Shown: positions 20,294-22,379 of the stretch, one piece after another | Layout of the letters: every line of letters begins with the position of its first letter | Position numbering within the stretch: the stretch's first letter is position 1 | IMG/VR virus record: IMGVR_UViG_3300000117_000182 | Coordinates: 1 to 26,390 of that record | Direction: 5' to 3' (one strand) | DNA length: 26,390 bases | Origin: a virus | Notes under the pieces: generated by a model | The model's database searches: none | The model's input: only the letters and a program-made list of their open reading frames with translations | Told to the model about the DNA's origin: nothing | Program-made: the position numbers and the translations under genes

Positions 20294-20322
20294 ATTATAC
20301 TACAAAATTATACTGGTGTAAA
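20294..20322 (-). promoter_or_regulatory. Sigma-70-type promoter upstream of uvsY
   Basis: On the minus strand -35 TTTACA (20317-20322) and -10 TATAAT (20294-20299) are separated by exactly 17 bases. The -35 lies within the last codons of the tail-tube-like gene. The transcript would begin about ten bases before the AGGATATATTATG leader of uvsY. Probably an early promoter read by host polymerase. Confidence 0.68.
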
Positions 20323-20814
20323 TGTATATTTTAAGAAGCGAAATGATGCAGTGGCTTCAATATAGTCTATTTGCGTGTCACGTGAATCCATAGTCAAATC
20401 AGATAATGAAATTGGGAAAATATCTTCGAAGTCAATACGAATTATTGGTTGCATGTTACTTGACATAACCATCAGATAACTATCAGATTCGAGACCGTCA
20501 CCTGTCAATTGTTTTCCTTCTTCAGCAAGAGATTTATATTGATCGAAATTATCAGGAAATGATAGACCAACTAACCAATTGTATATTTCAATATAATTGC
20601 CTAGATCTTCATTGACTTTAAATGAAACATTAAGCTCACCATATACGAGATGATCGCCATAACGAGGAATAGTTTTTAATGGTGTCGGCTGGTCAATAAC
20701 AGGGAAACTAACACCAGGAACTGTAACGTTCTGAACAAAAAAGTTGAACTCTGGTAGTTTCTTAATGTGGAAACTAAAGCCTACTGGCGATAGCATATTC
20801 TTATTCATTGACAT
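20308..20814 (-). CDS. Tail-tube-like structural protein (gp3/gp19-type fold)
   Basis: A 168-residue protein with the look of T4-like tail tube family members: FSFHIKKLPEFNFFVQNVTVPGVSFP, then IPRYGDHLVYGELNVSFKVNEDLGNYIEIYNWLVGLSFP, and a strand-rich end (FPISLSDLTMDSRDTQIDYIEATASFRFLKY). The V-x-x-D/N-E-x-x-N-x-x-E-I-x-N-W-L motif is typical of tube and tube-initiator proteins. In marine T4-like phages the gene after gp23 is usually annotated as gp3, the tail completion and sheath-stabilising protein; position supports that, but gp19 or a baseplate tube protein is possible. It is preceded by a TATAAATA late promoter. Confidence 0.62.
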   Translation of the reverse strand: MSMNKNMLSPVGFSFHIKKLPEFNFFVQNVTVPGVSFPVIDQPTPLKTIPRYGDHLVYGELNVSFKVNEDLGNYIEIYNWLVGLSFPDNFDQYKSLAEEGKQLTGDGLESDSYLMVMSSNMQPIIRIDFEDIFPISLSDLTMDSRDTQIDYIEATASFRFLKYTFTPV

Positions 20815-20838
20815 AAAGTATTATACCATGTTTTCTAT

Positions 20839-20846
20839 TATTTATA
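20839..20846 (-). promoter_or_regulatory. T4-type late promoter of the tail-tube-like gene
   Basis: TATAAATA on the minus strand, 25 bases before the ATG at 20814. It overlaps the T-tract of the terminator just upstream, so termination and late initiation occur at adjacent sites. Confidence 0.75.
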
Positions 20847-20870
20847 AAAACGGGGACCGAAGTCCCCGTT
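20846..20870 (-). terminator. Intrinsic terminator with UUCG tetraloop
   Basis: On the minus strand a nine-base stem (AACGGGGAC with GTCCCCGTT) closes a TTCG loop and runs straight into TTTTT. It follows the small membrane peptide stop by 13 bases. Confidence 0.9.
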
Positions 20871-20883
20871 GCTCATGACTAGA

Positions 20884-20976
20884 TTACAACAAAATTGCGA
20901 GTACTAAGACCACTCCACCTCCTAGGAGCAGTGACGGCCAGTGGATTTTACCAATAAGTGGTAGGTTAAGGTCCAT
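20884..20976 (-). CDS. 30-residue single-helix membrane peptide downstream of gp23
   Basis: A short ORF, MDLNLPLIGKIHWPSLLLGG continuing into ten more hydrophobic residues and a stop. It has an excellent AAGGAGGG ribosome site seven bases before the ATG, its own TATAAATA late promoter 36 bases upstream, and a strong terminator just after the stop. Residues 14-30 form one hydrophobic helix with a GGG hinge. It is too short for routine gene callers. Late timing suggests a role in lysis, membrane remodelling or virion assembly, but no family is recognised. Confidence 0.72.
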   Translation of the reverse strand: MDLNLPLIGKIHWPSLLLGGGVVLVLAILL

Positions 20977-21011
20977 AGTTTCCCTCCTTTGTTAGGCTCT
21001 TATGAGCTTAT

Positions 21012-21019
21012 TATTTATA
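21012..21019 (-). promoter_or_regulatory. T4-type late promoter of the 30-residue peptide
   Basis: TATAAATA on the minus strand directly after the gp23 terminator T-tract and 36 bases before the ATG at 20976. Confidence 0.75.
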
Positions 21020-21022
21020 TAC

Positions 21023-21048
21023 AAAAAAAAGGGGCGCAAAGCGCCCCT
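21023..21048 (-). terminator. Intrinsic terminator after gp23
   Basis: On the minus strand an eight-base stem (AGGGGCGC with GCGCCCCT) closes a TTT loop and is followed by a run of eight T. It starts about 30 bases after the gp23 stop. A weaker four-base TCCC/GGGA hairpin lies in between. Confidence 0.92.
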
Positions 21049-21077
21049 CAAAAATGTCCCTATCGGGATTCTTTTTA

Positions 21078-22379
21078 TTACAACAGGTTGCTGACCGTAG
21101 ACATACGATAGTATGCGTTGGTACCGTTGGTGATTGCACCGTCGGATACAGCAGGAGTACCTTGTACTGAGTGAGCAAAAGGATTCTCAACAAGACCGTA
21201 ACGAGTCTTGAAGCCAATCTTCGGCTGGAAGGTATCCTGATCGACAGCACGTACCATCTGCAGAGGAACATAAGGGCAGTAGAAGATGCCAGCGTCAAAT
21301 GCGCCTGCACCTTTGTAGCCGATGTTCATGTAGTTAGTAGTTGCGTAAGGATCGATGTATACGCGATACCGACCGTTCAGTACACCAGCGAAGGTGTTAC
21401 CAGTGTCGTCTACTGCCAAAGAATTGCTGTTCAGAGCAGGCGTATAATCAAGAACACCAGCCATCTGAAGTGCAGAAGCGACATCAGAAGAACAGATGAT
21501 CAGGTTAGCCTTACCACGTCGAGTATCTTTAGCTACTTTGTTAGCTTCGCGCTCGATGTGGAACATGAGGCCCTTGAACTTTTCAACTGACCAACGACCT
21601 GAAGCGTCAGTGTCAAGATCGAAAGTACCGTTAGTAGTAACAGTGCCTTGCGAACCAGCTACAGCGGCAAGGTTGATCGTACGAATAACTTCGCGGTTGA
21701 TTTCAGCCAAGATCTCAGCAGCAAGGATGTTGCTGAGTTCAGCTTCAGCGTCAAGACCGTGTACTGCTTTCAAGTCTTGAGCGAGTTCAAGCGAGTAATC
21801 CGCCTTCAGCGCACGTGACTTAGCAGTTACAGTGACTTTGTCGATCTTCATCGCCATCTCACCGAAAGCAGTTCCACCAGTTTCGCCAAGTGATTCAGCA
21901 GCGGAAGTGGTCATACCAGTACCTTTGCCACCAGTCTGAGAGTTACCAGAATGGGTGCCAGTACCAGAGAAGTCGGTGTCGGCTTCGTCGTACATAGCTT
22001 CGGTACGAGGAGTGGTGTTAGCACCATCCGGAGCGTACTGAGCGCTAAGAGCGAAGATCAAACCAGTCGGTCCAGTCATGGGCTGAACGCCACAAACATC
22101 ATAAGCCATCAAGTTCGGCAAAGTACGTCGAACAAGGCTGATAAGGATAGGATCAAAACCAGCGAACTCGCCGCCGAAGTTGTCACCAATGGTGTTTGAA
22201 GGTGCTTCAGAAAGAAGCTGTTGGCTAGCGCCCTGTGATGCAGCCTCACGAAGAGCACGCTCGGTGTTTTCGAGGACCATGGCCGTAACCATTTTCTTGT
22301 GGGAATCAGCGATTTCAGGAAGATCAGGGTGAGAGATCACTGGTGCCCACTTGTTGCGAATTTGTTCATTTAAATTCAT
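21078..22379 (-). CDS. 23: Major capsid protein gp23
   Basis: HK97-fold major head protein of T4-like phages. The 433-residue precursor opens MNLNEQIRNKWAPVISHPD, followed by a helical N-terminal prodomain. A likely gp21 cleavage site of the L-x-E type is at LLSEAPSN (about 55-62), close to T4 gp23 cleavage at residue 65. Conserved stretches include RRTLPNLMAYDVCGVQPMTGPTG (about 84-106), MAMKIDKVTVTAKSRALKADYS and RRGKANLIICSSDVASAL. T4 gp23 is 521 aa; marine forms are usually shorter. AGGAG ribosome site ten bases before the ATG, a TATAAATA late promoter 41 bases upstream, and terminators after the stop. Confidence 0.97.
   Translation of the reverse strand: MNLNEQIRNKWAPVISHPDLPEIADSHKKMVTAMVLENTERALREAASQGASQQLLSEAPSNTIGDNFGGEFAGFDPILISLVRRTLPNLMAYDVCGVQPMTGPTGLIFALSAQYAPDGANTTPRTEAMYDEADTDFSGTGTHSGNSQTGGKGTGMTTSAAESLGETGGTAFGEMAMKIDKVTVTAKSRALKADYSLELAQDLKAVHGLDAEAELSNILAAEILAEINREVIRTINLAAVAGSQGTVTTNGTFDLDTDASGRWSVEKFKGLMFHIEREANKVAKDTRRGKANLIICSSDVASALQMAGVLDYTPALNSNSLAVDDTGNTFAGVLNGRYRVYIDPYATTNYMNIGYKGAGAFDAGIFYCPYVPLQMVRAVDQDTFQPKIGFKTRYGLVENPFAHSVQGTPAVSDGAITNGTNAYYRMSTVSNLL

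Follow-up and report, generated by a model that had tools for sequence, protein, structure and literature searches.

A probable accessory late gene for a 30-residue membrane micropeptide in a cassette at the gp23-gp3 junction of marine T4-like phages

Organization of the gp23-gp3 junction

The window, by which we mean the whole 26,390-nt stretch of viral DNA analyzed here, carries on its minus strand the gene for the major capsid protein gp23 (21078-22379; PHROG 138, E 5e-157) and, downstream of it, the gene for gp3, a protein of the tail completion / tail-tube family (20308-20814; PHROG 45, E 5e-30; 542 phage records). Between the two genes, in 5' to 3' order, lie a terminator, the motif TATAAATA, a leader, a start context of the form AAAGGAGGGAAACT-ATG, 30 codons, a UUCG terminator and a second TATAAATA, all on the minus strand and at the coordinates of a preliminary description of this DNA. 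The gp23 intrinsic terminator (21021-21049) has a 9-bp stem (21049-21029) and a T-run, with a folding energy of -17.1 kcal/mol and a z score of -4.0, and a hairpin with T-run occupies the same position in relatives. It is followed by the T4-type late promoter of the unit, a perfect consensus TATAAATA (21012-21019), by a leader hairpin, GCUC-AUAA-GAGC, at the predicted 5' end of the transcript (20996-21007; recognized by covariation), and by the Shine-Dalgarno sequence AGGAGGG (20982-20988), which is conserved in homologues. The micropeptide gene itself (20884-20976), characterized below through its homologues, their dN/dS and AlphaFold, encodes MDLNLPLIGKIHWPSLLLGGGVVLVLAILL, a peptide of 30 residues predicted to form a single membrane helix. 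The UUCG intrinsic terminator comes next (20846-20869; stem 20869-20850; -16.4 kcal/mol, z -4.5), and the second TATAAATA (20839-20846), identified as the gp3 promoter by alignment with relatives that do not have the unit, begins with the last T of the terminator's T-run. An 11-bp direct repeat, TATAAATAATA, bounds the cassette, one copy lying at 21009-21019 and the other at the gp3 promoter.

The preliminary description, in which a hydrophobic ORF of 30 codons has an ideal ribosome site and a late unit of its own between terminators, is thus borne out, including a TATAAATA right after the gp23 terminator (21019-21012), a UUCG terminator of its own (stem 20869-20850) and the overlap of the T-tract with the next late promoter, at the shared base 20846. 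Other genes identified in the window with profiles are those of a gp22-type scaffold, UvsY and a UvsW-type helicase, together with the late sigma factor gp55 (PHROG 234, E 2e-57) and the sliding clamp gp45 (PHROG 223, E 6e-74). In gp23 the nearest named phages, namely Stenotrophomonas DLP6, Pelagibacter Mosig and phages of Sinorhizobium and Methylophilales, are only about 60% identical. The gp3 gene has no clear Shine-Dalgarno sequence, and a TATAAT box is conserved a few bases 5' of its ATG (20814-20830 in the window and likewise in L005-L013), so placed that a leaderless start, or a double-promoter start using TATAAT besides the late promoter, is possible.

Conservation of the 30-codon gene

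Homologues of exactly 30 residues were found in 12 other viral contigs, all carriers being environmental and partial contigs, and this number is a minimum, since the scans relied on degenerate motif patterns. The sequences form four groups and are 57-100% identical to the window peptide. Back-translated DNA patterns recovered the window-type peptide in L087, L088, L089 and L090 (97-100% identical in L087, L089 and L090), a 77% identical 30-mer occurs at the gp23-gp3 junction of the five contigs of the L110 group (L105, L107, L108, L110 and L111), and L118, L119 and L120 carry 30-mers in another genomic setting (L120 67% and L119 57% identical, the L118 and L120 copies being identical to each other). 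In genome searches the L120 peptide matched a copy in the 160-kb relative G014 at E 4e-8, and the family profile gave matches at E 9e-17 and 5e-19.

The homologues are free of internal stops in all four groups, and 15 of the 30 columns are invariant (M1, L5, P6, G9, K10, H12, P14, S15, G19-G21, L24, L26, L29 and L30). Variable sites are distributed 18/6/27 over the three codon positions, and among the close copies 8 of the 10 differing sites lie at third positions. The dN/dS ratio of the window is 0-0.06 against close copies and 0.18-0.25 against distant ones, the window-L120 pair being saturated in synonymous change; simulated neutral change never kept the distant peptides as well as observed. 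Mononucleotide shuffling of the 166-nt unit did not yield, in 20,000 trials, a single ATG ORF of at least 30 codons with a Shine-Dalgarno sequence and a membrane-like 18-mer. Judged from these sequence comparisons, the ORF is a real gene, coding and under purifying selection. The coding function claimed at the outset thus holds, the frame being conserved in four groups at dN/dS values of 0-0.25. The motif put forward for recognizing relatives did so in part: 30-codon homologues were indeed found, with K-[I/L]-H-[W/L]-P rather than strictly K-I-H-W-P.

The peptide has no match in Pfam, PHROGs, NCBIfam or PDB (none of six family members matches any PHROG), and comparison with the T4 t holin family PF11031 gave no Pfam family above its cut-off. 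A Pfam hit to Orthoreo_P10 (E 0.14) was below the family cut-off and was rejected as mere hydrophobic similarity; a fold search with the lone helix was also without match. Among named phages tblastn of the peptide found nothing, a result in which low-complexity masking may hide matches, and DNA patterns and the profile were used instead for this reason; the profile did not match any of 15 named T4-like phages. Two further sets of candidates were discarded, one of them named phages whose DNA resembles the unit only in terminator and promoter letters, the other five pattern matches in genome contigs, located within longer frames and not homologous.

Leader hairpin and predicted peptide structure

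A stem of 4 bp, capped by a tetraloop, stands just 5' of the ribosome site in every group, the stem being GCUC/GAGC, GCCC/GGGC, GACC/GGUC or GCCA/UGGC. Across these four independent groups three of the four pairs show double compensatory changes, and pairing is 100% versus 82% in shuffles. The stability of the hairpin is not unusual by itself (z -1.0), so that the evidence for it is the covariation; a leader dyad for a protein is the alternative to an RNA hairpin.

AlphaFold, run with an alignment of six sequences, predicts one helix from residue 5 to 29 with a mean pLDDT of 81. In every group residues 13-30 form a strongly hydrophobic stretch (mean hydropathy 2.1-2.3), and the peptide has the makeup of a single-pass micropeptide, namely a hydrophobic helix long enough to span the membrane and little else. 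Since K10 and H12 precede the hydrophobic stretch and nothing comes after it, the simplest topology would have the N-terminus in the cytoplasm. On the basis of sequence and model, we infer that the peptide inserts in the host inner membrane with residues 13-30 spanning it, in which case K10 and H12 would lie on the cytoplasmic side and the GGG of residues 19-21 would serve helix packing.

Late promoters and terminators among relatives

The TATAAATA motif 5' of the micropeptide gene is kept in the window, L087, L089 and L090. In the window it lies on the coding strand within the 30-45 nt before the start that are expected of a late unit (21019-21012, with the ORF starting at 20976), a spacing similar to that of late genes in G014, and the presence of gp55 and gp45 in the genome is as expected for T4-type late transcription. 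Terminators are found on both sides in the gp23-gp3 setting, and in the L118-L120 setting a terminator follows the gene. G014 has 22 intergenic NATAAATA sites on the late strand, only two of which stand directly 3' of a terminator hairpin, and these two flank the micropeptide unit. Adjacent TATAAATA pairs elsewhere in G004, G014 and G015 do not enclose similar cassettes.

The gene of the L110 group is preceded by a terminator but by no TATAAATA, so that not every copy has a dedicated late promoter; late expression in this group may come from read-through of gp23 or from another promoter. Contigs L118-L120 have CTAAATA at the position of TATAAATA, a motif also present before gp3 in that contig, and CTAAATA would be the late promoter there. 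G066 (L173, 6954; L172, 16530) has CTAAATA, not TATAAATA, before both gp3 and the micropeptide gene, which suggests a variant late promoter consensus; a related variant has been described in phage Aeh1 (PMC2988020).

A conserved non-coding element of about 75 nt lies just 5' of the micropeptide unit in L120 (8525-8608), L119 (4213-4283) and L118. About 100 Synechococcus phages also have the element, mostly unannotated, in or near their tRNA clusters (for instance HQ317290, 17877-17915, and OQ984149, 55420-55493), and it may be a small structured RNA encoded on the same strand as the tRNAs.

Presence, absence and exchange of the cassette

The gap between gp23 and gp3 measures 263 nt in the window versus 91-93 nt in L005, L006, L008, L009 and L012, contigs in which gp3 is 78-83% identical at the DNA level and the gap holds a single terminator and a single TATAAATA-type promoter. 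The extra DNA of the window, about 172 nt, sits between the two TATAAATAATA copies. Overall the unit is precisely absent, with the junction otherwise shared, in L005-L009, L012, L131, L132 and L135. L131 and L132 differ from L090 by exactly the micropeptide unit, with the boundary at TATAAATA, ahead of another small late unit. The latter, which precedes gp3 in L090 (3990-4450, minus strand) and in the gap of L131/L132, has its own terminator and late promoter and contains a 111-aa ORF with a signal peptide (MKYVLAFAMFLSASVVA...), which matches nothing convincingly in PHROGs, Pfam or named phages.

Identity among the window, L087, L089 and L090 is 93-97% in the unit and 94-97% at the end of gp23 versus only 70-77% in gp3, a difference indicating that exchange has joined one gp23-unit block to different gp3 alleles. 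The alignments place the break of this exchange near the second promoter, with junctions at late promoters. In L004/L086, the nearest relative of the window (gp3 100% identical), 65-70 nt are lost at the junction (around 7710), including the end of the helix and the terminator stem, leaving a truncated peptide of 23 aa (MDLNLPLIGKIHWPSLLLGGFYK) and the next promoter; the gene is thus dispensable there, if the assembly is right. In G004, a relative of 163.7 kb, the profile did not detect the micropeptide. Named phages have unrelated genes between gp23 and gp3, such as an annotated exonuclease in DLP6, a phytanoyl-CoA dioxygenase in P-SSM2 and hypothetical ORFs in others, so that the junction is a common insertion site.

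Alternative explanations and possible roles

Our reading is that the unit is quite probably an accessory late gene for a single-helix membrane micropeptide, carried at the gp23-gp3 junction of marine T4-like phages in a cassette of about 172 nt that is bounded by late promoters and terminators. Against this, the ORF might have arisen by chance between two regulatory signals of an intergenic region, as the shorter ORF-free gaps of close relatives and the broken copy of L086 could suggest; practically no credence can be given to this explanation, already refuted by the conservation of frame and length in four groups, with mostly synonymous change (dN/dS 0-0.25), and opposed also by the homologue in a different genomic setting. 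That the unit functions instead through its RNA, a short non-coding or regulatory species made late, and that the peptide is incidental, would fit the covarying leader and the short terminated transcript, but it is highly improbable given that codon-position bias and amino acid conservation span the whole ORF. The required late function proposed in the preliminary description did not survive the comparison. Strong signals and purifying selection speak for it; however, many relatives share the junction precisely without the unit (L005-L009, L012, L131, L132 and L135), the copy in L004/L086 is truncated, none is detected by profile in G004 and the L110 lineage has the gene with no TATAAATA in front, so that we regard a required protein as very unlikely. 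Because close relatives have or do not have the unit as a whole, the data suggest an optional helper of late infection rather than an essential part. A more serious contender concerns history: an old, vertically inherited gene, repeatedly lost by recombination between the flanking TATAAATA repeats, could take the place of a moving cassette. The homologue of the distant L110 group at the same junction and the 11-bp direct repeat around the block favour such losses, against which stand the other setting in L118-L120 and the different divergence of unit and gp3; we consider this history a substantial possibility, though short of an even chance, and loss and cassette movement can act together.

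For the accessory gene, the proposed course of events would start with late transcription dependent on gp55 and gp45, the two terminators insulating the unit from gp23 read-through, after which the peptide would insert in the host inner membrane and might modulate it late in infection, the effect on the host being a guess. Among putative roles we favour lysis timing, in the manner of a holin or antiholin, or weakening of the envelope, a tentative assignment suggested by the late expression signals, by the membrane helix with GGG and, weakly, by the fact that the T4-type holin PF11031 was not found in the four large relatives G014, G004, G066 and G007. Phages without the unit must lyse too, however, and the family matches no known lysis protein. 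Next in rank comes superinfection exclusion, with a late inner-membrane peptide blocking DNA entry or adsorption of competing phages; it would explain the patchy presence and exchange of a gene that is accessory, polymorphic, swapped between related phages and membrane-only in its product. Yet a late promoter is less expected in this case, T4 Imm being made early and larger than the micropeptide, and no sequence link exists, so that this role seems rather unlikely. Binding of a host membrane protein, ranked last, is likewise doubtful. Two other readings were dropped, that of a type I toxin, as no antisense partner was seen, and that of a capsid component, for which a nearly all-hydrophobic peptide is a poor fit.

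It is conceivable, if speculative, that the accessory gene stands for a new family of phage membrane micropeptides, expressed late and transferred among marine T4-like phages in a self-contained cassette of promoter, gene and terminator that moves at late promoters, with an optional advantage to the carrier in lysis timing or competitor exclusion. A 30-codon gene under clear selection is missing from the protein-family libraries searched, and T4-like phages can swap very small genes at the promoters of their late structural block, often regarded as a stable core. The unit, being minimal and self-contained, allows its effect to be tested with the addition or removal of about 170 bases.

Comparison with known systems

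Bacterial single-pass micropeptides such as KdpF, CydX, MgtS and TisB have about 30 residues and one membrane helix, and the phage peptide resembles them in these features as well as in having almost no soluble part, but bears no detectable sequence relation to them in PDB, Pfam or NCBIfam. With MS2-L, the T4 t holin and similar late or lytic membrane-active peptides it shares a transmembrane helix; it differs in having no sequence match and in being of only 30 aa, without soluble domain, accessory and polymorphic. The promoters correspond to those of the gp55/gp33/gp45 system of T4 (PMC2988020, PMC2984593), given the exact TATAAATA consensus before late genes and the gp55 and gp45 homologues in the window. 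Here, however, two copies are merged with terminators 173 nt apart, whereas in the relative G014 no other late promoter follows a terminator.

The closest parallel is with the promoter-early stem-loop (PeSL) elements of T4-like phages, which, as outlined where PMC4503421 cites Arbiol 2010 and Comeau 2014, are promoter-terminator composites mediating gene shuffling. On that outline, both arrangements combine terminator hairpins with promoter motifs at the borders of small accessory genes, providing homology for shuffling between related phages. A terminator stem-loop with a promoter stands at both borders in the window, L087, L089 and L090, and presence or absence is precise at the motif (L005-L009 and L012 versus the window; L131/L132 versus L090). 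The promoter, in contrast, is the late TATAAATA rather than an early, sigma-70-like one, and the site is the late structural block between gp23 and gp3 rather than an early hyperplastic region. Since the early promoter is absent, we do not classify the cassette as a PeSL but as working like one, and by this analogy it is best read as the late-gene counterpart of PeSL shuffling in T4-like phages.
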